A stretch of DNA of 64,000 nucleotides from Weeksellaceae bacterium (GTDB lineage Bacteria; Bacteroidota; Bacteroidia; Flavobacteriales; Weeksellaceae), in contig JAIBEX010000020.1 of NCBI GenBank assembly GCA_019459455.1, positions 248,001 to 312,000 of the forward strand, written 5' to 3'. Under the pieces are notes generated by a model, which saw only the letters and a list, made by a program, of their open reading frames with translations, searched no databases and had not been told where the DNA came from. Each line of letters begins with the position of its first letter. Position 1 is the stretch's first letter. Positions 14,673-26,916 of this stretch are shown here, one piece after another. The translations under genes were made by a program, and so were the position numbers.

Positions 14673-16877
14673 ATGAAAAATTATTATCTCCCACTGCTGT
14701 TTTTTCTACTAACTTCTTTGGTAGCCTACGCCCAGCCTCCACAAATGTATTCTCAAAATTTTAATGGAAATCAGTTTTTTGTAAGTCCTACAACAGCAAA
14801 CTTAAATGCCGGAAACACCTTTACTTATGAAGCCTGGGTGTTTATAACAGAAGCAAGCCCTTACGGAGTTGTTGCTGGAAAGGTTTTTGCGCCCCGAGCT
14901 GATGATCCTTTTATTAACTATACTTTAGGGTTTGGGGATACTGGTTTGCGACCAGAATTTGTACAAACAACGGGTCTTTCAGGTTCTTATAAAGCCGCAG
15001 CCTCAACCACCAATATACAGTTGAATACATGGACGCATCTTGCCGCAACTTCTGATAACGGTTCTATGAAACTGTATATTAACGGCATCCTTGCAGCAAC
15101 CAATGCCAGTACAGGAATGCCAAATCCCAGTCCCGACGTTCCATTTGCAATAGGCTCTGGTGCCACGCCTTCTTTGCAACCAACCTGTTGCGGAATCAAA
15201 GGTAATATAATGCAGGTACGTATATGGAACACCGCCCGAAGCGTTACAGAGCTAACAGCTAATATGAACAGTCAGTTGAGCGGAAATGAAACAAATCTGG
15301 TGGCATATTACCCAATGAATGAAAATGCCGGTCAAATCCTACAAGATAAGACCAGCAATGCTTTGCATCTTCAGAGAGGAACAGCTACTGGAACCGATCC
15401 CGCAGACCCGATAGCAACTCCTAACGCCACTAACGGCCAATATTTTATTTACAGCAATATAACAGTGCCTTCTCTAGCATCAGCTAATGAAGACCTGTAT
15501 ATTATTGATTTTGATAACGATGCAAAACTGGATTTTTTAGTATCGGGACTCCAATGGCCGCCAACGATGCCCGCAACAACAGTTCCTATACAGGCTTTCA
15601 AAAACAATGGATTGATGAGTTTTAGCAGTAACAGTGCATTTATAGGTAACAATGAAGCAGTTCATCCGAGAAGTTACGTTGTTGCGGATTATAATGGAGA
15701 CGGGAAATCTGATCTTTTTATAGCGGATCATGGAACTGATGTATCTCCCTTCCCTGGACAAGCAAATAAACTATTCCTTCAAAACACTACGGGTAAATTG
15801 GTAGATTCCCCTGCTAATATTCCCTCACAGCCTGATTTTTCACATTACACCACTGCTGCAGATATTGATGCTGATGGTGATATTGACATTTATGTATCCA
15901 ATATTTGGGGACAGGCATTGGTGGGCCCTTACTTCCTGATAAATAATGGCAATGGAAACTTTACCAAAATGACTTCCAATTTCCCTGCCGCCATTCAAAA
16001 TCTGAACCAAGTGTACATGTCCAGTATATTTGCAGATATTGATAATGATAATGACCAGGATCTTATATTGGGTGCCGTCGATAATTCTAATTTGGTAAGT
16101 GACTTAATTCTTCTAAATAATGGAACTGGCACATTCACTCCTGGTTCTGCATTACCACCTAGATATGGTAATGCGAGTTGGGGAACTGTCGGTATCACAA
16201 AAGGTGATTTTAATAATGACGGCTTTGTGGATTTGGTAATGTCAACGTTGGTAGGATATCAAACATGCATGGTGCAGCTATTACTAAACAACGGAAATGG
16301 AACATTTTCAGATCACACTTCAAATATTCCCCAGAACTGGCCAACTTCAAACACCTGGATAAAATGGATTGAAGCCGGAGATATTAATAATGATGGCCAC
16401 CTGGATTTAGTTTTTGCTACGCACTTTGCTGCAACTCCCAAATTATATTACAATAATGGCAATGGGTTTTTTACAGATGCATCCAGCACACTTAATCCAT
16501 CCGGCATGAACGGAATTAGAAGTACACGTGTACGGGATTTCGATGGTGATGGGCAAATGGATATCGCATTTTTAGGAGAAACAAAGGTTGTAATCGCTAA
16601 AGCAGTGCAAAATTTTGTTCTGTCAGCAGTTGAAATCATGCCTGTAAGCAAGAAGTTAATTATATTTCCTAATCCCACTACGGGCTCATTTTCAGTAAAG
16701 CTACCCGATAACGAAATTTTTGTGAAATTAGAAGTCTTTGATTTGAATGGCAGGGCTGTTTTTTCTTCAGATAAATACCGTGATTCTTACAACCTTGAAA
16801 ATTTTTCCGCGGGTATATATATTGTGAAAATTAGCACCAAACTAGGAAACTATAGTGCCAAATTAATTAAGAGATAG
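14673..16877 (+). CDS. Secreted LamG plus VCBS/FG-GAP repeat protein with T9SS sorting domain
   Basis: 734 residues from the ATG at 14673, which gives a clean signal peptide (MKNYYLPLLFFLLTSLVAYA). An upstream GTG at 14631 is rejected because it overlaps a TAATTTTG promoter element (14624-14631). A concanavalin-like LamG domain covers about 30-200. Seven calcium-type Asp repeats follow (DFDNDAKLD, DYNGDGKSD, DIDADGDID, DIDNDNDQD, DFNNDGFVD, DINNDGHLD, DFDGDGQMD), as in VCBS/FG-GAP propellers. The last 85 residues are a type A T9SS sorting domain (PNPTTGSF...GIYIVKI). It is probably a cell-surface adhesin or glycan binder. It is AT-richer than its neighbours and lies between the aminopeptidase gene and a decayed copy of that gene's end. 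Confidence 0.9.
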   Translation: MKNYYLPLLFFLLTSLVAYAQPPQMYSQNFNGNQFFVSPTTANLNAGNTFTYEAWVFITEASPYGVVAGKVFAPRADDPFINYTLGFGDTGLRPEFVQTTGLSGSYKAAASTTNIQLNTWTHLAATSDNGSMKLYINGILAATNASTGMPNPSPDVPFAIGSGATPSLQPTCCGIKGNIMQVRIWNTARSVTELTANMNSQLSGNETNLVAYYPMNENAGQILQDKTSNALHLQRGTATGTDPADPIATPNATNGQYFIYSNITVPSLASANEDLYIIDFDNDAKLDFLVSGLQWPPTMPATTVPIQAFKNNGLMSFSSNSAFIGNNEAVHPRSYVVADYNGDGKSDLFIADHGTDVSPFPGQANKLFLQNTTGKLVDSPANIPSQPDFSHYTTAADIDADGDIDIYVSNIWGQALVGPYFLINNGNGNFTKMTSNFPAAIQNLNQVYMSSIFADIDNDNDQDLILGAVDNSNLVSDLILLNNGTGTFTPGSALPPRYGNASWGTVGITKGDFNNDGFVDLVMSTLVGYQTCMVQLLLNNGNGTFSDHTSNIPQNWPTSNTWIKWIEAGDINNDGHLDLVFATHFAATPKLYYNNGNGFFTDASSTLNPSGMNGIRSTRVRDFDGDGQMDIAFLGETKVVIAKAVQNFVLSAVEIMPVSKKLIIFPNPTTGSFSVKLPDNEIFVKLEVFDLNGRAVFSSDKYRDSYNLENFSAGIYIVKISTKLGNYSAKLIKR

Positions 16878-16914
16878 GAAACAAATTACTTGTAAAAGGT
16901 CGGTTATCCTCTCT

Positions 16915-17105
16915 GCTGATCAAAGTTTCATGATTCCATGCATAAAGACAGATCGTATAGAATCCAAAGGCCAAAGAGATGATTATAGAGATGCTGAAGG
17001 AAGGTCTTGCCAGAAAAAGTGACCGTCCTGAAAGCCAATCCTGCCAGCCCGACCATCAACCAGCAAATGGATCTGATCAATAAAGCGATTGAGGCGTATA
17101 AATAA
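16915..17105 (+). pseudogene. Decayed second copy of the aminopeptidase 3' end
   Basis: From about 16915 the sequence aligns with the aminopeptidase gene from about 14230 on. The match is weak at first, then strong: from ATGCTGAAGGAAGG to the terminator I count about 16 differences over some 170 positions by eye. One extra base in the A-run near 17010 shifts the frame. The last codons (DLINKAIEAYK, stop 17103-17105) are preserved. Many differences are third-position transitions, suggesting the copy diverged under coding constraint before decay. Confidence 0.8.
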
Positions 17106-17123
17106 TTCAGCTTACATCAACAT

Positions 17124-17153
17124 AAAAGACCGTTCCTGTGGGAGCGGCCTTTC
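17124..17153 (+). terminator. Diverged copy of the aminopeptidase terminator
   Basis: Left arm AAAAGACCGTTCC, loop TGTG, right arm GGAGCGGCCTTT. It corresponds base for base to the terminator at 14436-14465 with a few changes, and completes the duplicated 3' segment. It could still stop transcripts of the LamG gene. The rest of 16878-17247 holds nothing I can support. Confidence 0.65.
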
Positions 17154-17247
17154 ATGTTTTAATGGTTTGTATAGTAAATTGGAGATTTGCCTTCAAATCC
17201 GTTAATAAAAATCCGTTTTATCCTCATCGGCTAAATCAATAAACGCA

Positions 17248-18765
17248 CTATTCAGAGTCACTTTTAAAATTAACGGTATCATACAGATCCGTCCTTCTGT
17301 CGCTCATGGTACGTACTGCACCGTAATGATGAAGTTCCTTCAGCAGGTTCAAATCCACATCCACAATCAGGGTGGTTTCCGTGTTTGGAGTGGCTTCCCC
17401 TTTAATGGCATTGGATGGGAAAGCAAAATCGGAAGGCGTGAAAACCGCCGCCTGACCGAACTGGATGTCCATATTGTTTACGCCCGGCAGGTTACCCACA
17501 CAGCCTGCAATTGCAACATAACATTCATTTTCAATAGCCCTTGCCGCAGCACAGTGGCGAACGCGCGTATAAGCATTTTGGGTATCGGTAAGATAAGGAA
17601 CGAAGAGGATTTTCATGCCCTGATCGGCCAGGATTCTTGGCAGTTCGGGGAATTCCACATCATAACAGATTACAAGTCCCACTTTTCCGCAGTCGGTATC
17701 GATGACCTTGATCTCGTTTCCGCCTTTCATACCGTAATATTTCCTTTCGTTCGGCGTGATGTGTATTTTACGGTGCTCGTCGATCTTGCCGTCGCGGTGC
17801 AGCAGATAACTGATATTGTATAGTTCATCATTATCAACAATCGGCATACTTCCGGCGATGATGTTAATGTTATAACTGATGGCAAACTCTGAGATTTTGT
17901 TCTTGATCTCTTCGGTGAGTTCCGCAAGCTTAAACATACTTTCCCTTTCCGACAGGTGGTTGAAGGGGGCGAGCAGCGGCGTATTGAAGAGTTCAGGGAA
18001 CATGATGAAATCCGACTTGTAATCAGCCATTACATTTACAAAGAATTCCACCTGTTCGTAAAATGCATCCAGGGTTTTGAAATGCCTCATCTGCCACTGC
18101 ACCAGGCCGAGCCGGATCACCGAATCCTGCATGGTGTTGGGTTTATTGCTGTAATAGATGTTGTTCCACTGCAGCAGTACGGCATTCTCCTCGGAGTGCA
18201 GGTCTTCCGGCAGGTAATTCTTAAGGATCCTTACGGGCAGGAAGTTGTTGGCAAGCTGGAAACTGAGCACCGGGTCATAGATTTCCTTGTTCCTGACCTT
18301 CTGGATGTAATCCCGCGGCGAAAACTCAGCACTGTGCAGGTGATAATTCGGAATCCTGCCGCCTACCATGATGGATTTCAGGTTCAGGGTTTCGCAAAGT
18401 TCTTTCCTTACGTCATAGAGTCGTCGGGCCAACCTCAATTTCCGGTATTCCGGGTCTACAAAAACCTCAATGCCATACAGGACATCCCCTGTATCCGAAT
18501 GCGTATTGAACGTGTAGTTTCCTGTAATTTCTTTATAGGTGTGCTCGTCGCCATACAATTTATACTGAACGATGAGTGCAAGCGAAACCGCCGCAATTTT
18601 TCCGTCAACAGTAATGCAGGTCTGCCCCGCAGGGAAAATGCGCAGCAGCTTCTGTATGCTTTTCTTTGACCAGATACTTTCGGACATGGCGGGATAGGCT
18701 TTCTGCATGGTCTCCTTCAGTTCTTCGTAATCTTCTATGGCCAGTTTTCTTATATCAATCTGCAT
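17248..18765 (-). CDS. GNAT acetyltransferase fused to a nitrilase-family (carbon-nitrogen) hydrolase
   Basis: 505 residues. Residues 1-205 form a GNAT domain (IDIRKLAIEDYEEL..., acetyl-CoA loop region around PEYRKLRLARRLYDVRK). Residues 217-500 form a nitrilase-superfamily hydrolase with triad E258 (MFPELF), K333 (HRKIHITP) and C367 (LVICYDVEFPEL). Such hydrolases cleave amide C-N bonds. The fusion recurs in bacteria as a bifunctional protein of unproven substrate, and the domains may act in sequence on one amine or amide. It is a single gene, minus strand, cytoplasmic. Start ATG at 18765. Confidence 0.9.
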   Translation of the reverse strand: MQIDIRKLAIEDYEELKETMQKAYPAMSESIWSKKSIQKLLRIFPAGQTCITVDGKIAAVSLALIVQYKLYGDEHTYKEITGNYTFNTHSDTGDVLYGIEVFVDPEYRKLRLARRLYDVRKELCETLNLKSIMVGGRIPNYHLHSAEFSPRDYIQKVRNKEIYDPVLSFQLANNFLPVRILKNYLPEDLHSEENAVLLQWNNIYYSNKPNTMQDSVIRLGLVQWQMRHFKTLDAFYEQVEFFVNVMADYKSDFIMFPELFNTPLLAPFNHLSERESMFKLAELTEEIKNKISEFAISYNINIIAGSMPIVDNDELYNISYLLHRDGKIDEHRKIHITPNERKYYGMKGGNEIKVIDTDCGKVGLVICYDVEFPELPRILADQGMKILFVPYLTDTQNAYTRVRHCAAARAIENECYVAIAGCVGNLPGVNNMDIQFGQAAVFTPSDFAFPSNAIKGEATPNTETTLIVDVDLNLLKELHHYGAVRTMSDRRTDLYDTVNFKSDSE

Positions 18766-18851
18766 TTTCTTTTATGTTGGTTTATTGATTAATCTACTTT
18801 TTGCAAAGGTAAGAAGCAAATGCCAAATTTCATCCGCTCATAAGTGAATAG

Positions 18852-20081
18852 TTACAATGCAAACTCCTTCGGTTCCTCAAACTTCTCGCCGGATATTTTC
18901 GTTACAAACATGGCAGCAACGGTATCGCCGGTGGAGTTCAGGACGGTAGCAAGCGGATCCACGAGCGTACCGATAATCATCACCGCAGGAATGGCCTCCA
19001 CCGGAAGCTGGTATACCGAAATCATGAGCATTTCGCCAATGTAACCACCGTTTGGGATTCCACCCGCAACAATGCTCACAAAAACCGTGATTCCCACGGC
19101 AAGCAGCAGGTTCATCGGGTCGAAAAAATCCCGTCCGATAATCAGGAAGGCGACATAAATCTTGATGATGGACGACATGGAGGAGCCGTTTTTGTGCAGC
19201 GTGCTCCCAATCGGGATTACAATATTGGCAATGGCATCCGGGACGCCGATTCTTGCAGCCGCCTGCAGATTCACGGGCATCGTGGCAAAACTGCTGCATG
19301 TGGAGATGGCTGTTAGGCTCGGGTAGATGTTGTTTTTCCAGAATTTCCGGATGCCGTCTTTCCCTTTCGCTATAAATGCATACAGGGTAAAGAAAACAAA
19401 GAAATACACCGTTCCCGCGGCGTAATAAAGTCCGAGCGGTTTCGCATAAAATCCGAAAAGCTGTGGTCCGATCGTCGCCACCTGATAAGCAAAGTACGCG
19501 CCCAGTCCCACCGGCGCGGCTTTCATTACGATGAGCAAAAGTTCCTTCATGACCTCATAGCCCGAAGCAAGGAAAAGCGTAAAATGCCTTCCTGCTTCGC
19601 CGGTCTTACGGGCCGCCATTCCCGTAAGAAAGGCGAATATGAGTAAAGCAAGCATGTTTTTCCGTGAAAAGAGTTCTGTGAACTCACCTACTGTGAAAAA
19701 CCGTACGATGCGGTCGCCCCAGGTATCGTCGCCGCCCGTTTCTGGCAACTCCTCCGGCGTGGAGGGCAGGGCTTCCGTAGGGAAGAAGTAGACTGCTCCT
19801 ATGGTGAACAGGGCAGCAATTATGATGAAGAGGAGAAAAGTGAGCGTCATGGAGAAGATGATCTTTCCGAATTGGGACTGCCGTTCCAGTGAGGCGATGG
19901 AATTCGAAACCGCGAAAAAAACCAGCGGCACTACACTAACGAAAAGAAGATTCAGGAAAATGTCGCCAAACGGTTTCAGATATTCCACGGCTCCGGGGAA
20001 AAAGATCCCGATGATGCTTCCTGCGATGATTCCGGTAAGGAGCAGTAAAATTCCGGCGTAATTTTTCAGCACTTCCTTCAT
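18852..20081 (-). CDS. DAACS (GltP/SstT-type) transporter with substituted cation- and substrate-site residues
   Basis: 409 residues with eight membrane segments and two re-entrant loops typical of the dicarboxylate/amino acid:cation symporter family. The first hairpin is CSSFATMPV (262-270) and the second GGIPNGG (340-346). The TM7 signature, usually NMDGT, here reads H296-K297-N298-G299-S300. In TM8 the usual D-x-x-R-T-x-x-N-x-x-x-D is D375-x-x-A378-T379-x-x-N382-x-x-x-D386, so the arginine that binds the side-chain carboxylate of Glu/Asp is an alanine. The fold is secure, but an acidic amino acid:sodium label would be unsafe. A promoter element lies at 20106-20099. Confidence 0.9.
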   Translation of the reverse strand: MKEVLKNYAGILLLLTGIIAGSIIGIFFPGAVEYLKPFGDIFLNLLFVSVVPLVFFAVSNSIASLERQSQFGKIIFSMTLTFLLFIIIAALFTIGAVYFFPTEALPSTPEELPETGGDDTWGDRIVRFFTVGEFTELFSRKNMLALLIFAFLTGMAARKTGEAGRHFTLFLASGYEVMKELLLIVMKAAPVGLGAYFAYQVATIGPQLFGFYAKPLGLYYAAGTVYFFVFFTLYAFIAKGKDGIRKFWKNNIYPSLTAISTCSSFATMPVNLQAAARIGVPDAIANIVIPIGSTLHKNGSSMSSIIKIYVAFLIIGRDFFDPMNLLLAVGITVFVSIVAGGIPNGGYIGEMLMISVYQLPVEAIPAVMIIGTLVDPLATVLNSTGDTVAAMFVTKISGEKFEEPKEFAL

Positions 20082-20098
20082 AAAAGTCTAATTTTTCT

Positions 20099-20140
20099 CA
20101 AAGTTAAAGGAAAAATATCTTCCAAAAATTCTTAAATTTG
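20099..20140. promoter_or_regulatory. Divergent promoter elements between the DAACS gene and cbpA
   Basis: Minus strand: TAACTTTG at 20106-20099, with a TTTTTG about 16 bases upstream, drives the transporter (leader about 12 bases). Plus strand: TAAATTTG at 20133-20140 drives cbpA, 18 bases before its ATG. Both match TAnnTTTG. Confidence 0.5.
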
Positions 20141-20157
20141 AGGAAAGCCCGACAAAA

Positions 20158-21078
20158 ATGGCATATATAGACTATTATAAAATTTTAGGGATTACAAAAA
20201 CCGCTACTCCGGAAGAGGTTAAGAAAGCCTACCGCAAACTGGCGCGGAAGTATCACCCCGACGTCAATCCCGGCGATAAGGAGGCCGAAAAAAGATTCAA
20301 GGAAATAAATGAAGCCAATGAAGTGCTGAGCAGTGCCGAAAATCGTGAGAAGTACGACAAATATGGAGAACACTGGAAACATGGCGACGAGTATGAGAAG
20401 GCACAGCAGCAACAGCGTCAGTATCAGCATTCCCAGGGTGGCGGTGCTGGTTTTTCCGGAGATTTTGGGGAGGGAGAAGACTTTTCCGACTTCTTTCAGA
20501 GCATGTTTGGAGGTGGAGCAGGAGCCGGGTTTGGAAAGGGTTCCCGCGGATCAGCTTCAGGGAAATTCCGGGGACAGGATGTTGCTGCGGAACTCCAGCT
20601 TCATCTTCGTGATGCGGCGAAGACCCACCAACAAACCTTTGACATCAACGGAAAGAAAGTGCGGATTACCATCCCTGCAGGAATCCACGACGGACAGAAG
20701 ATTAAGCTGGCCGGACACGGAAACCCGGGTTACAACGGCGGACCGAACGGCGATCTTTACATTACGTTCGCGATTGCTGAAGATCCGCACTTCAAAAGAA
20801 ACGGTGACAATCTGACGGCCGACGTGGAAATAGACCTCTACACCGCACTCCTGGGTGGCGAGGTGAATGTAAAGACGCTGGACAGCGAGGTGAACCTGAA
20901 AGTGAAACCTGAAACGCAGAACGGCACCAGGGTGAGGCTGAAAGGGAAAGGATTCCCTTTTTATAAAAAGGAAGGGGAGTTCGGCGACCTGTTCGTCACT
21001 TACCGCATCAGACTGCCGAAAAATCTGACGGAGCGCGAAAAAGAACTGTTTGTGGAACTTAAAAAATTAAGAAAATGA
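20158..21078 (+). CDS. cbpA: DnaJ-like co-chaperone CbpA
   Basis: 306 residues. The J domain (1-70) has the HPD tripeptide in [10 protein letters not shown] Gly/Phe/Ser-rich linker (about 85-135) follows. The two beta-barrel substrate-binding domains start near 140, and there is no cysteine zinc finger, which separates CbpA from DnaJ. It delivers unfolded clients to DnaK and stimulates its ATPase. The next gene overlaps by four bases (ATGA) and encodes its modulator CbpM, which strengthens the assignment. Confidence 0.95.
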
Positions 21079-21389
21079 GCCAGAGAATATCACGCGAAGA
21101 GCTTGTAGCGCTTTACAACATAGAAATTACCTTTTTTGATGAACTGGAAGAATGCGGCCTTCTGCGAACCGAAACCGATAACGAGGTTAAATATCTTTAC
21201 TATGAGGAACTGCCGGCTTTTGAACGCTTCATAAACTGGCATTATGACCTGGAAGTGAACCTGCCCGGCCTGGAAGTCATCAGCCACCTGCTGGAGCAGA
21301 TTGAAGCGCTGCATGAGGAAAGAAGGACCCTGCTGAACCAAATGCTTTCCGAACAGCATTATTTGGGCGACAACAAGGAAGAATGGTAA
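21075..21389 (+). CDS. cbpM: Chaperone modulator CbpM
   Basis: A 104-residue MerR-like helical protein ([20 protein letters not shown], then ECGLL, the helix-turn-helix-like start of CbpM) ending in a helix that forms the coiled dimer region. CbpM binds the J domain of CbpA and blocks its use of DnaK. Coupled by ATGA overlap with cbpA, so the two are made together. It ends 45 bases before a bidirectional terminator shared with the convergent cysteine-synthase-family gene. Confidence 0.9.
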
Positions 21390-21434
21390 TTTCTAGTGAC
21401 GCTCCAAAAATAATTAACGGTCAAACTAATGAAC

Positions 21435-21464
21435 AAACCCCTTCAGCAAAAGCCAAAGGGGTTT
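21435..21464. terminator. Bidirectional terminator between cbpM and the convergent PLP-enzyme gene
   Basis: Arms AAACCCCTT (21435-21443) and AAGGGGTTT (21456-21464) around a 12-base loop, with A before and T after, so it can act in both directions. Confidence 0.75.
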
Positions 21465-21489
21465 ATTATGAAATCTTACTTTCTAAAAA

Positions 21490-22473
21490 TTAATCCAGCC
21501 AGCCCATTTCCTTCATCCATTCGTCATTGTAGATCTTGGCAACATAACGGGAACCGTGGTCGTGCAGCAAGACGACAATGATATCGTCCTTCGTAAACTG
21601 ATCCTGCATCTGCTTCAGTGCAGCGATGGCGCTTCCCGCAGAATACCCGCAGAAAATGCCTTCTTCCTTGGCCAGTTTCCTGGCGTAAATGGCCCCGTCT
21701 TTATCCGTCACCTTTTCAAAATGATCGATGACGCTCATGTCGTAGTTTTCCGGCAGGATGTCTTCGCCAATGCCTTCGGTAATGTAGGAGTAGGCATTTT
21801 CCAGGTGGATTTCGCCTGTTTCATGGATTTCCTTCAGGATGGATCCGTAAGTATCCACCCCAATCACTTTGATATCCGGATTTCTCTCCTTAAAATATCT
21901 GCCACAACCGGTTACGGTACCTCCGGTTCCTGCTCCCGCAACAAAATGCGTGAGTTTACCTTCTGTCTGTTCCCAGATTTCAGGAGCGGTCTGCTCGTAG
22001 TGTGCCTCCCGGTTGGAAAGGTTGTCGTACTGGTTTACATACCAGCCGTTTTCGGTTTCCGCTGCCAGCCTTTTTGATACGGAATAATAAGAGCGGGGAT
22101 CGGTAGGTTTCACATCGGTTGGGCACACAATCACTTCCGCACCCACGGCCCTCAGGATATCACATTTTTCCTTGGACTGCTTTGCATTTGTTACAAAGAT
22201 GCATTTATAGCCTTTCACAATAGCGCAGAGGGCGAGTCCCATACCGGTATTCCCGGAGGTTCCTTCAATGATGGTTCCGCCGGGTTTCAGACGTCCGTCT
22301 TTTTCGGCATCTTCAATCATTTTTACAGCCATACGGTCCTTTATGGAATTCCCGGGGTTGAAGGTTTCTACTTTCGCCAAAACCAAAGCAGGAAAGTCCG
22401 GTCCGAGCACTTTATTGAGTTTCACCAGAGGCGTATTTCCTATGGTTTCGAGTATATTATTGGCAAATTTCAT
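21490..22473 (-). CDS. Cystathionine beta-synthase / cysteine synthase family PLP enzyme
   Basis: 327 residues, fold-type II PLP enzyme. The Schiff-base lysine is K45 in NPGNSIKDR, the substrate loop GTSGNTG is at 71-77, and the phosphate cup GAGTGGT lies near 178. The ending HDHGSRYVAKIYNDEWM is typical of cystathionine beta-synthase catalytic cores (human CBS has a similar ...DRWM end) rather than CysK. No regulatory CBS domains are present. It should join serine (or O-acetylserine) to homocysteine or sulfide in the cytoplasm. Which substrate it prefers is not settled by sequence. Confidence 0.9.
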   Translation of the reverse strand: MKFANNILETIGNTPLVKLNKVLGPDFPALVLAKVETFNPGNSIKDRMAVKMIEDAEKDGRLKPGGTIIEGTSGNTGMGLALCAIVKGYKCIFVTNAKQSKEKCDILRAVGAEVIVCPTDVKPTDPRSYYSVSKRLAAETENGWYVNQYDNLSNREAHYEQTAPEIWEQTEGKLTHFVAGAGTGGTVTGCGRYFKERNPDIKVIGVDTYGSILKEIHETGEIHLENAYSYITEGIGEDILPENYDMSVIDHFEKVTDKDGAIYARKLAKEEGIFCGYSAGSAIAALKQMQDQFTKDDIIVVLLHDHGSRYVAKIYNDEWMKEMGWLD

Positions 22474-22503
22474 ATCTGAATAAAAAATATTTAAAGGTTA
22501 AAA

Positions 22504-23733
22504 TCAGGTGTATTTGATGGATTTCACCGGCGAGATCTTGCTGATCAGGTAACTGGGGAAAACAAGTGCAAAGGCTGATACCAGCAATATGCCTGCCGAT
22601 ATCATAAAGGGGATCATGGGGTTCATGTCCACCGGAACGGTAGAGATATAATAATTTTCCGGGTTGAGTTTGATGATTCCAAAAAACTTCTGAAGCCCCA
22701 GTAAAATGAAGCCTATAAGGTTGCCGAAGATGAGCCCCGGAACCATAATGAGCAGCGTGTAGTAGATGAAAATAGTCCGGATCTGTCCGTTGCTCGCCCC
22801 CAGGGTTTTCAGCAGGCCAATTGAATTGGTCCTTTCAATGATCAGGATCAGCAGCACCATAATGATGTTGATGATGACTACAATGAGCATGATGATAATG
22901 ATGACCGCGATGTTGTTATCAAAAATATTAATCCAGTCCACGATTTGCGGATACTTTTCCGTGGCTTTTTCGGTGTAGTTCTTTATCCCGACATTTTTGT
23001 CGATTTCGGGCGTCTCTTTGTCAATGTCGTTTACGTTTTTCAGGAAAATATCTACACCACCGGCGTCGTCTTTTTCCATATCCAGGATTTTGCGCGCGTG
23101 GTTGATATCACCTATTACAAACTGGTCGTCAATCATCTTGATGTCCGTCTTGTAGATGCCCACAACTTCGAAGTTCCGGTATAGCGGCTGTTGGTCGACC
23201 TTGGAGAAAATCGCCACAATGCTGTCTTTTACTTTTAGGTGAAGGTCGCTGGCTATTTTTTCAGACAGGGTCACCCCGTTGTTGTAGCCATTTTCCGTTA
23301 CTTTCGGTGTGGTGCCCTCGATGATAAATTTACTGAACCGTTCGTGGTCAAAATCCTTGCCGATTCCCTTGAAGACGATCCCGGCAAAATTGTGTTCATT
23401 CCTTAAGATCCCGCTGGCACTCACGTAGTTCTGGAGGCCTGCCACATCGGGATTATCCTTTATTTTCTTAAGGTTCAGACCCTTTTTATCCAATACAGAA
23501 GAATCATAAGACGAGTTGGAACGTTTGGATTTTATGTTGATGTGCCCGCTGAAATCTGCCATCCGTAGTTTAATGGCTTCCTTGGATCCGAAACCAACCG
23601 ATACCGTAATGAGCGAGACAATGATGCCAAGAGCTACGGAAAGCCTTCCGATAAGGATGATAATCCGTGAGAGATTATTTTTGTTATCTTTGGAAAAAGC
23701 AATTTTTTTGGAAAAATATAACGGAAACTTCAA
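22504..23733 (-). CDS. LolC/LolE-type ABC transporter permease (FtsX-like)
   Basis: An N-terminal membrane segment (GRLSVALGIIVSLITV), a large MacB-like periplasmic domain (about 60-255) and three C-terminal membrane segments form the FtsX/LolCE fold. Proteins of this kind extract lipoproteins from the inner membrane for transport to the outer membrane, with an ATPase encoded elsewhere. No ATG is available: TTG at 23733 gives the customary KFPLYFSKKIAFSKDNKNNL start, and a TTG seven codons earlier is less likely because it would overlap the divergent namZ gene. A TAATTTTG element (23759-23752) fits a start at 23733. Confidence 0.87.
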   Translation of the reverse strand: MKFPLYFSKKIAFSKDNKNNLSRIIILIGRLSVALGIIVSLITVSVGFGSKEAIKLRMADFSGHINIKSKRSNSSYDSSVLDKKGLNLKKIKDNPDVAGLQNYVSASGILRNEHNFAGIVFKGIGKDFDHERFSKFIIEGTTPKVTENGYNNGVTLSEKIASDLHLKVKDSIVAIFSKVDQQPLYRNFEVVGIYKTDIKMIDDQFVIGDINHARKILDMEKDDAGGVDIFLKNVNDIDKETPEIDKNVGIKNYTEKATEKYPQIVDWINIFDNNIAVIIIIMLIVVIINIIMVLLILIIERTNSIGLLKTLGASNGQIRTIFIYYTLLIMVPGLIFGNLIGFILLGLQKFFGIIKLNPENYYISTVPVDMNPMIPFMISAGILLVSAFALVFPSYLISKISPVKSIKYT

Positions 23734-23737
23734 GCAG

Positions 23738-24931
23738 ATGATTTTAGATGCCAAAATTAAAGATTTACTTCTTATTTGCCTAATCTTTTTGGGAATTACG
23801 GGTTTTAAAGCACAAAATACGGATGCCTTGTGTTTCCTGGCTGCTGCGGACCGCTCCGAACTCTATTTACCGCTGCTGAAGAACAAAACCATCGGCGTGG
23901 TGACCAACCAGACCGGCCTTTTGAAAGACCGTACCCACCTTGTGGATTTTCTGGTGAAAAATAATATTAAGATAAAGACCATTTTCGCTCCCGAACACGG
24001 CTTCCGGGGTACCGCTGATGCCGGCGAACATGTGAAAAACGGTGTGGATACCAAAACCGGAATTCCCATCGTGTCACTCTACGGAAACAACAAAAAACCC
24101 ACTGCAGAGCAGCTAAAAGATTTGGACATGGTCCTTTTTGACATCCAGGATGTTGGGGTACGGTTTTACACCTATATTTCCACACTTACTTATGTGATGG
24201 AAGCCGGTGCCGAGCACAATGTGGAGGTCATGGTGTTGGACAGGCCAAATCCACACGACGGTTATACAGACGGTCCGGTACTTAAGGAGGGCTGGACCAG
24301 TTTTATCGGGATGCACAAAGTTCCGGTGGTGTACGGGCTTACCATGGGGGAGTACGGACACATGGTGAACGGTGAAAAATGGCTGAAAAATGGTGTACAG
24401 GCAAAATACACCTTGATTCCAATGCGGGGATACCACAAAAAACAGCGTTACGGGATGCACGAAAAACCGTCACCTAACCTTTCCAATGACAAGTCGGTGA
24501 ACCTGTATCCGAGCCTTTGTTTCTTCGAGGGAACTCAGGTTTCTGTGGGGCGGGGCACCGAACTTCCGTTCCAGATCTATGGTTCTCCGTGGACGAAAGA
24601 GTTGCCTTACCGGTTTACGCCCAGGCCTACTGCTGGTGCAAAGGATCCATTTCTGAACGGGAAACTGTGCTACGGAGAGAATCTTTCCGTTTACCCGGAA
24701 GATTTACGTGCAATCAATCTGGAATGGCTACTTAAATCCTACAAAATTTATAAAAACCCGCAGCAGGATTTCTTTCTGAAGAATCTTTTCTTCGATAAAC
24801 TCGCTGGTTCAGACGAGCTGCGGAAACAGATCATTGCCGGGAAAAGTGAAGACGAAATCATAGCCAGCTGGCAAAACGGTCTCGCAGATTTCGAAAAGAT
24901 CAGGGTGAAATATGTCCTGTATGAGGATTAA
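23738..24931 (+). CDS. namZ: Exo-beta-N-acetylmuramidase NamZ (DUF1343)
   Basis: 397 residues from the ATG at 23738, with a signal peptide (DLLLICLIFLGITGFKAQ). The body has the family blocks GVVTNQTG, FAPEHGFRGTADAGE, SLYG, FDIQDVGVRFYTYISTL and DRPNPHDG..., then an EGTQVSVGRGTELPFQ region. Characterised members release MurNAc from the non-reducing ends of peptidoglycan fragments. It should act in the periplasm in cell-wall recycling. A TATCTTTG element lies at 23685-23692. Its start codon lies only four bases from the divergent permease start, so the promoters sit inside the opposite genes. Confidence 0.9.
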   Translation: MILDAKIKDLLLICLIFLGITGFKAQNTDALCFLAAADRSELYLPLLKNKTIGVVTNQTGLLKDRTHLVDFLVKNNIKIKTIFAPEHGFRGTADAGEHVKNGVDTKTGIPIVSLYGNNKKPTAEQLKDLDMVLFDIQDVGVRFYTYISTLTYVMEAGAEHNVEVMVLDRPNPHDGYTDGPVLKEGWTSFIGMHKVPVVYGLTMGEYGHMVNGEKWLKNGVQAKYTLIPMRGYHKKQRYGMHEKPSPNLSNDKSVNLYPSLCFFEGTQVSVGRGTELPFQIYGSPWTKELPYRFTPRPTAGAKDPFLNGKLCYGENLSVYPEDLRAINLEWLLKSYKIYKNPQQDFFLKNLFFDKLAGSDELRKQIIAGKSEDEIIASWQNGLADFEKIRVKYVLYED

Positions 24932-25131
24932 TCGAAATGGTGATGCGTATCGTCCTTCCGGTTCCTGTACACAAACCACATTCCTATGGTGAGTCCGACG
25001 ACACCGGCCACAGCAGTCATCAGCGCACGCGACAGTCGGTCCGCTTCAGGATTACCGATATAGTTCATCGCGAAGAGAATGATGAAGGTAATGAGGGCAA
25101 CGATGAGGTATTTTGTACTTTTTATATTCAT
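24928..25131 (-). CDS. Small two-span membrane protein
   Basis: 67 residues with two hydrophobic segments (about 7-25 and 36-56), a charged loop (NPEADRLSRA) and a His-rich tail (DDTHHHFD). No function is recognised. Its 3' end overlaps the convergent namZ end by four bases, and its start codon overlaps the last base of the upstream DUF3575 gene, so it is translated from the same message as that gene. Confidence 0.75.
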   Translation of the reverse strand: MNIKSTKYLIVALITFIILFAMNYIGNPEADRLSRALMTAVAGVVGLTIGMWFVYRNRKDDTHHHFD

Positions 25132-25739
25132 TATCTTAATTTATACGAAATCATAATTCCGCCGCGGTAAGGAATCCATTCGCCGCTTTTATTCCAGCCT
25201 GTCATCTCATCATATCTTACACCCAGGGTATTGTGGTAGCCTTTATAGAAACTCTGAGTCATTCCCCCACCCACAAACAGATCCATATTCCACTTCTCCG
25301 CTAACTGGAACTGATATCCTACCGTGGCACCCAGCATGATGGAATATCCGTCCTGGTAAAGATCGGATTTATTGTAAATTGGCGAGTTCTCGGTAAGTTG
25401 ATATGGACCATCGCGCCAGTGATTCCACTTTTGTGCAATAAAACGAAGCCCACTGAGGTTGGCACCAATATACCATCGTCGGAAAGCCTGATCCAAATAA
25501 TACCGCCCATCAACCCCCACCATGTACAGTTGGGCTTCATGTCCTGCGAAGGATTTCCAAGGGGATATGAGAACATCACCCTGCACCGTGAATTTATTGC
25601 TCAACTGATACTCTGCGCCAGCATTCAGAATACCGAGAGGAAGCAACGCAGCATTTCCTTTTAGATATACCGATTTCTGGTCCTGCGCACTGCAACAAAT
25701 TGCGGTGATAAACGATAGAATAATGAGGGTTTTTTTCAA
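25131..25739 (-). CDS. Outer-membrane beta-barrel protein, DUF3575-like
   Basis: 202 residues. A signal peptide (1-18, CCSAQ) is followed by alternating beta strands with many aromatic residues (AGAEYQLSNKFTVQGDVLIS, GVDGRYYLDQAFRRWYIGAN, VGYQFQLAEKWNMDLFVGGG) and a final strand ending SYKLR. This is a small outer-membrane barrel of the DUF3575 type. The role is unknown; relatives are associated with surface structures. It is transcribed with the thioredoxin-fold gene (4 bases upstream) and the small membrane protein downstream. Confidence 0.8.
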   Translation of the reverse strand: MKKTLIILSFITAICCSAQDQKSVYLKGNAALLPLGILNAGAEYQLSNKFTVQGDVLISPWKSFAGHEAQLYMVGVDGRYYLDQAFRRWYIGANLSGLRFIAQKWNHWRDGPYQLTENSPIYNKSDLYQDGYSIMLGATVGYQFQLAEKWNMDLFVGGGMTQSFYKGYHNTLGVRYDEMTGWNKSGEWIPYRGGIMISYKLR

Positions 25740-25743
25740 TGGC

Positions 25744-26916
25744 TTATTTTAGTTCCTGTAATAGTTTTTCAGCTGCTGAAGAATCTGCTTCCTTCTGTTT
25801 GGCAAGCCTGATGGAAGATTCAGCATACATCCTGGCTTCAGCTGCTTTTCCTGATCTCTGATAGAGTTTTGCCAAAATATAGGTATTTTCGGGCGTTTCG
25901 CGTTGCAAGACTGACTTTTCAGCCCACATTTGCGCGGTTTTCAGGGCGTATCTGTCGGTGGCTTTGTCGGAAAAAATCCAGGCTGCCTTCAAAAGTTCGG
26001 AGGGATCAAACTGCTCGGGGATTTTGAAATATTCCAAAGCGGTAGCCTGGTAAGAAGGAAAGTTATCTTTTAGTTCGTAGTAACTCAGTTTCAACCGATT
26101 CAGCGTTTTTTGTGCATGCTCTTTACCTACTAATGGTTCTGCTGAGGTCAGGAAAAAAAGGTCGTTGACGGTTCCCGTGTCCGTAGCAACAGAAGATTCC
26201 CAAATTTTCTGTATTTTAAGTTGATTGTCAAAGTCCACAAAGGTCTGGGCAGGAAAATGAGGGGTAATCTGGCTTTGGTTCTGCTTAAAAATCTTATAGT
26301 TTGGGTCGTCCACCGATTTTACAAAAAAGAGCAGGTAACCGACCTCGTCTTTCGTAAATTCTTTTGAGTTTTTGTGCTGAAAATACCGTTCAGACGCAAG
26401 TTTAGCAAACTGATAGTCCGAATTTGAATGAAGTTTGATGATGTTGATGAGGAAATCAGGGTCTTTTTCTCCTTTGTCAAAACGGTCTCTCATAGAGTCA
26501 ATATTCTTTAGAGCAGCATTGGCCTCTTTCCCAAGTTCCAGAAAGGTGCTTTCGGGCAAATAGCCCATGTTCTTGGATATGAGTTGTCCGTCACCGTTGA
26601 TGAAAAGAAAGGTGGGATAGGAGCGTACGCCGTAACGGGCGGCTAACGCTATGCCTTCGCCCTTTTCCATATCGAACTTCCCGTTAATGAAATTGGTGTT
26701 AAAATAATCTCCTACTGATTTTTGTGTGAAAACATTTTTATCCATCAGTTTGCAGGGTCCGCACCAAACCGCCATTGCATCTATAAAGACCAGTTTGTTC
26801 TCTTTTTTTGCCTGCTCCAGAAGTTTGGCAAAGCTGTTTTTTTGAAACTGTATGCCCTGCTGTGCAAAGACAGACAGCCATAAAAGAAGGAATAATGCTG
26901 AGAATATATTTTTCAT
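25744..26916 (-). CDS. Periplasmic thioredoxin-fold protein with TPR-like tail
   Basis: 390 residues from the ATG at 26916, chosen because it begins a clear signal peptide (MKNIFSALFLLLWLSVFA). A longer frame from 27024 adds 36 residues of poor composition. The thioredoxin domain (about 25-140) carries W-C-G-P-C-K and the cis-proline segment VRSYPTFLF. The remaining 250 residues are helical, with a TPR-like end (YILAKLYQRSGKAAEARMYAESS). It probably reduces or isomerises disulfides in the periplasm. First gene of a three-gene minus-strand unit with the DUF3575 and small membrane proteins. Confidence 0.87.
   Translation of the reverse strand: MKNIFSALFLLLWLSVFAQQGIQFQKNSFAKLLEQAKKENKLVFIDAMAVWCGPCKLMDKNVFTQKSVGDYFNTNFINGKFDMEKGEGIALAARYGVRSYPTFLFINGDGQLISKNMGYLPESTFLELGKEANAALKNIDSMRDRFDKGEKDPDFLINIIKLHSNSDYQFAKLASERYFQHKNSKEFTKDEVGYLLFFVKSVDDPNYKIFKQNQSQITPHFPAQTFVDFDNQLKIQKIWESSVATDTGTVNDLFFLTSAEPLVGKEHAQKTLNRLKLSYYELKDNFPSYQATALEYFKIPEQFDPSELLKAAWIFSDKATDRYALKTAQMWAEKSVLQRETPENTYILAKLYQRSGKAAEARMYAESSIRLAKQKEADSSAAEKLLQELK

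Follow-up and report, generated by a model that had tools for sequence, protein, structure and literature searches.

The SDF/SLC1 family includes the human glutamate transporters, and how a carrier of this kind comes to switch from one driving ion to another is an open question. A gene of a Weeksellaceae bacterium raises this question directly, as its product carries a lysine in the motif that forms part of the sodium sites of its relatives. The gene is located at 18852..20081 on the minus strand of the analysed stretch of 64,000 nucleotides (hereafter the window), starts with an ATG at 20081 and encodes 409 amino acids with no internal stop. It is a clear member of the SDF/DAACS (SLC1-type) family, matching PF00375 in full length and above the gathering score (residues 13-395, 276 bits with the cut-off at 27.9, E=6.4e-82). 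At the same time, scores against the equivalog (SstT, GltP) and subfamily (DctA) models of named carriers place it outside SstT (80.6 bits, cut-off 308; NCBIfam PRK13628.1), DctA (87.4 against 513 for PRK01663.1 and 61.7 against 570 for PRK13027.1) and GltP (57 against 638; PRK11283.1). Could such a carrier have exchanged a sodium ion for a charged side chain of its own?

Placement of the residues against solved structures

To place the residues, solved structures were searched with phmmer and with an hmmsearch profile, PDB entry 9bgz serving as the reference, for which the correspondence to GltPh numbering is published (M289 = M311, T292 = T314, D366 = D394, R369 = R397, N373 = N401 and T78/T79 = T92/S93; PMC12668577). 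The alignment runs without gaps through TM3, TM7, HP2 and TM8 (E = 7.7e-75, profile A2). In TM7, 'TLHKNGSS' of the carrier sits gap-free on 'TINMDGTA' of 9bgz, so that the directly read motif H296-K297-N298-G299-S300 (19182..19196, minus strand, as all features of the carrier below) takes the NMDGT position, GltPh 310-314. Individual pairs are H296 = N310, K297 = M311, N298 = D312, S300 = T314 and, further on, S303 = Y317. K297 itself (19191..19193) thereby takes the position of GltPh M311 and GltTk M314, between Na1, Na2 and the substrate (PMC5110648). In TM8, 'VDPLATVLNSTGD' of the carrier lies on 'LDMARTTVNVTGD' of 9bgz, where R369 corresponds to R397, and residues 375-386 (DPLATVLNSTGD; 18924..18959) pair as D375 = D394, A378 = R397, T379 = T398, N382 = N401 and D386 = D405. 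TM3 is represented by F82-L-L-F85-I86 (19824..19838), with F82 = Y89, F85 = T92 and I86 = S93, and is devoid of Na3 ligands. The HP1 tip, T261-C262-S263-S264-F265-A266-T267-M268-P269 (19275..19301), has C262 at the position of GltPh R276.

A sequence-only reading had placed HKNGS on NMDGT and A378 on the TM8 arginine by eye, and had listed D375, T379, N382 and D386 as kept. The profile alignment gives identical residue pairs, the by-eye placement is therefore correct, and the translation agrees for the four kept residues; misalignment as a source of the HKNGS/A378 reading was rejected. The strand and the loss of the TM3 sodium-site residues were added here. An AlphaFold model based on 38 Weeksellaceae homologues reached a mean pLDDT of 40.6, and no conclusion was drawn from it.

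According to the alignment, all side-chain ligands of Na3 are absent from the carrier, the Na1 carboxylate is retained as D386 (= D405), and the tyrosine partner of R397, Y317, is a serine (S303). Compared with the published signature of Na+-coupled DAACS carriers ([S/T]92-93, N310, [M/S]311, [D/E]312, [D/E]405; PMC12668577), the carrier differs at F85, I86, H296, K297 and N298 and matches only at D386. The signature of H+-coupled members ([ALIVMF]92, L311, N405; PMC12668577) fits at F85, but not at K297 and D386. Arg397, the mark of acidic amino-acid carriers, is replaced by A378, and the residues binding the substrate backbone, D394 and N401, are present as D375 and N382 in 130/130 subfamily sequences.

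This combination differs from that of every known system compared. GltPh and GltTk, Na+-coupled aspartate carriers, and Anc-Int, the reconstructed uncoupled ancestor (PDB 9bgz; PMC12668577), share the family, the topology and the D394, T398, N401 and D405 equivalents with the carrier, which in turn has Ala for R397, Ser for Y317, Lys for M311, His for N310, Asn for D312 and Phe/Ile for T92/S93; its identity to Anc-Int is only 28%. GltP, DctA and GltT-Bc, H+-coupled members that departed from sodium within the same family, are likewise hydrophobic at 92, but have Leu 311, Asn 405 and R397 where the carrier has Lys, Asp and Ala. The Ser/Thr:Na+ symporter SstT of E. coli also lacks the TM8 arginine and transports neutral amino acids, as is presumed for the carrier, yet it retains NM (NMAGA) at 310-311, has Glu at 397 and is 20% identical. 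ASCT1/ASCT2 and GltPh-R397C have, like the carrier, a small residue in place of Arg397 and transport neutral amino acids, but they are still Na+-dependent and have an intact sodium-site motif (PMC5750217), while the motif is changed in the carrier. A lysine in a former sodium site of a Na+-independent amino-acid carrier is found in BasC, ApcT and GkApcT of the APC superfamily (PMC6472337), whose unrelated fold makes this an analogy only.

A bounded subfamily and the order of its residue changes

Far from being peculiar to a single genome, the carrier falls in a sharply bounded, unnamed subfamily. Profile A1 scores at least 518 bits in 30 of the 395 Bacteroidota genomes sampled, and the next SDF protein reaches 165. 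Closest among the named orthologues are those of Kaistella and Chryseobacterium. Presence in phyla other than Bacteroidota rests on two plasmid matches, the viral contigs searched held no relative, and the literature search returned no paper mentioning an HKNGS motif in a carrier.

Among the 130 distinct sequences pooled from all searches, most of them close relatives within one family, residue 297 is Lys in 126 and Met in four, His296 occurs in 127, and Ala378, D375, N382, K307 and E350 are invariant. Chance as the origin of HKNGS/A378 is excluded by the conservation of K297 and Ala378. In none of the 26 other SDF proteins compared is the residue at K307 in TM7b (19161..19163) a Lys or otherwise charged, and E350 in HP2 (motif GGYIGE; 19032..19034) is replaced there by uncharged, mostly hydrophobic residues; the two could pair in a salt bridge or interact with a charged end of the substrate. 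The loss of otherwise conserved motif residues might also suggest a degenerate, non-transporting protein. This was rejected as extremely improbable, since full-length frames are intact in many genera and the new residues are invariant, pointing to strong selection.

Given this close relatedness of most of the sequences, counts of changes on the tree outweigh raw counts. In trees calculated without the trait columns, with Arg397-type SDF proteins as the root, the subfamily was monophyletic (support 99/99 and 100/100). Its first-branching members bear Met in the form of HMDGS or HMEGS, and only four of them were found, one from Firmicutes (L142) and three from Bacteroidota (L031, L205, L209). 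Residue 297 changed to Lys once on the tree, with support for the Lys clade of 92/89, or 94/88 after removal of the longest branches, which is slightly below the starred level. Further state changes number three at residue 298 (D/E or not), four at residue 85 (T/S or not) and four at D386. All losses of D/E298, T85 or D386 fall within the Lys clade, and all four Met-bearing members retain all three residues. Residues 85 and 298, two of the Na3 ligands, covary (F+N in 98 sequences, T+D/E in 27, T+N in 1), although this amounts to only three independent pairs (sign test p 0.25). The Met-bearing members already have Ala378, so the loss of R397 preceded Lys throughout the subfamily, and Ala378 and K297 are consequently separate events rather than one change.

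The steps are preserved in living relatives, from HMDGS over HKDGS, where T92, D312 and D405 equivalents are present, to HKNGS, where these are lost. Each step can therefore be assayed without ancestor reconstruction, and, as far as the aligned residues indicate, the carrier adds to a known family a variant with a natural series of intermediates. Two genomes from the window genome's own genus (L171, L177) combine HKDGS and T85 in place of the HKNGS/F85 pair, pointing to a reversal or to mixed inheritance.

The window genome comprises 2.6 Mb in 22 contigs and holds one other SDF gene (L001 1339-2766; G000 contig C13), with NLDGT, Ala at 92, Asn at 405 and R397 kept; its NLDGT, Ala 92 and Asn 405 fit the published H+-coupling signature. 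One Weeksellaceae genome of 690 contigs has the carrier gene broken into two frames with an internal TAG (L190; G417 contig C309), representing a pseudogene or an assembly error.

Possible role of the lysine

In regard to the function of K297, we favour, with a confidence close to even, an elevator-type neutral amino-acid carrier in which this lysine would act as a tethered cation, making transport sodium-free or much weakening its coupling to sodium. Ions, drive and cargo are what we infer from the aligned residues. The substrate backbone would be held as in the relatives, by D375 for the amino group and N382 for the carboxylate, the residues being aligned and their function presumed, while the side-chain pocket would be devoid of both the carboxylate-binding arginine (A378) and its tyrosine partner (S303). 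K297, placed where M311/M314 links the substrate with Na1 and Na2, would replace at least Na2 and take over from that ion the task of holding the binding loop in a high-affinity shape. The deeper Na3 site would then be free to decay, as might be reflected in F85, I86, H296 and N298, and Na1 would be decaying in those relatives where D386 became Q or N. Transport would most likely be coupled to protons, with K297 and/or H296 taking them up and releasing them, or otherwise be driven by amino-acid exchange, and the likely cargo would be a neutral amino acid that is small or contains sulfur.

In GltTk, the methionine aligned with K297 is the centre of a triangle of aspartate, Na1 and Na2 (PMC5110648), and every known SLC1 transporter coupled to Na+ retains it, with Leu in the H+-coupled ones (PMC8431971). 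Lys154 of BasC and Lys158 of ApcT occupy the Na2 site in Na+-independent carriers of another fold (PMC6472337). An ammonium group of K297 at the Na2 position is a prediction supported by sequence alignment. The earlier interpretation is supported in part: its suggestion that one cation may have given way to a fixed Lys has gained from the aligned Met between substrate, Na1 and Na2 (PMC5110648), from the single origin of the Lys, and from the restriction of sodium-ligand losses to the Lys clade, and the replacement itself keeps its conditional standing. Speaking against a simple reading, mutating the GltTk Met to Cys or Ser leaves the stoichiometry at 3:1 (PMC8431971), so the residue at this position need not set the coupling alone.

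The single Met-to-Lys change may also be seen as a third way for the glutamate-carrier fold to leave sodium coupling, an idea we hold somewhat more tentatively: with a permanent cation where ions and substrate meet, sodium would become unnecessary, after which the Na3 and then the Na1 ligands would be lost. Such a route would differ both from the proton route with Leu311/Asn405 and from Anc-Int, where uncoupling is allosteric.

Retention of D386 and N382 in the window protein speaks against a sodium-free carrier, as the Na1 site may remain, and residual Na1 coupling is for this reason the main rival. Accordingly worded, it would be a sodium-coupled neutral carrier with reduced stoichiometry, in which Na1, formed by D386, N382 and the backbone, drives uptake, K297 replaces Na2 only, and Na3 is gone. 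D386 is kept in 108/130 and N382 in 130/130 sequences, and GltPh-R397C is still Na+-driven and concentrative (PMC5750217). On the other hand, D386 is Q or N in 22/130 sequences, through four inferred changes and with the rest of the site alike, and N310, whose backbone carbonyl helps to form Na1, is a His here. We regard this alternative as rather unlikely.

Alternatively, K297 could be an anion-binding stand-in for the lost arginine, contacting the substrate carboxylate or another anionic group, in which case acidic or bulky amino acids may be the cargo. In structures, M311 contacts the bound aspartate through its side chain (PMC12668577) and a Lys there could do likewise, and the invariant K307 and E350 bring charges to two segments that line the pocket region, TM7b and HP2. 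However, R397 was gone before the Lys appeared, as the Met-bearing members with Ala378 indicate, and its tyrosine partner was lost as well (S303), which together make a stand-in improbable.

If K297 does replace a sodium ion, the glutamate-carrier fold and the unrelated LeuT fold would share one solution, a convergence that can be tested, and the label 'dicarboxylate/amino acid:cation symporter', borne by both annotated relatives, may mislead. From the residues compared, the carrier is a promising candidate for a sodium ion swapped for the protein's own charged side chain.

Cargo and gene neighbourhoods

GltPh-R397C lost aspartate transport and gained Ser, Ala and Cys, its Ser uptake being inhibited by Met (PMC5750217). 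The earlier claim that the carrier takes no acidic substrates fits this mutant (PMC5750217) and is plausible, though K297 itself could face an anionic group.

Gene neighbourhoods offer a lead from one genus. In five Flavobacterium-like loci (L210-L214), which belong to one genus of the sister family, taken as Flavobacterium from Flavo-1 RNAs and gene content, the carrier adjoins a split metH and metF in 5/5 fetched. It is colinear with metF in four of them, and L211 has an ABC gene on the opposite strand between the two. A SAM riboswitch precedes metH in L210, L211 and L214, and the stretch searched in the other two contains none. This may be a single arrangement handed down within one genus, and no link to methionine or sulfur genes was found in Weeksellaceae and Sphingobacteriaceae-like neighbourhoods, nor any riboswitch at 16000-26000 of the window. 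As a lead and not a result, the cargo may thus be amino acids that contain sulfur or are small and neutral. A further alternative is that K297 is always charged and the carrier a pure exchanger or facilitator, with no ion gradient driving net uptake. Transport by Anc-Int depends on neither Na+ nor H+ (PMC12668577), and the Na+-independent BasC is an exchanger (PMC6472337), but an importer linked to biosynthesis in Flavobacterium would benefit from concentrative uptake, and we find a pure exchanger or facilitator quite improbable.

Other neighbours were rejected as cargo clues. Downstream of the carrier by 86 bp lies an ORF of 505 aa (17248-18765, minus strand) with a C-terminal CN_hydrolase (carbon-nitrogen hydrolase) domain and an N-terminus that appears GNAT acetyltransferase-like by eye, with no Pfam match; this nitrilase-type ORF is found beside only two other orthologues (L033, L035). 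Nothing consistent emerged from the neighbours of the Sphingobacteriaceae-like genes (thiL, nadA) or of the Met-bearing members (rRNA methyltransferase, corA). A DnaJ/CbpA-like and CbpM-like pair (20158-21389, plus strand) was set aside as it is divergent from the carrier, and it is conserved there in most Chryseobacterium and Kaistella loci.

The sulfur lead also draws on a conjugative Salmonella plasmid (CP054717; L143 2899-5356), the only record of its type in the plasmid collection, which carries a distant Lys-bearing relative with NKGGV and 32% identity, adjoining metC and a divergent LysR regulator.
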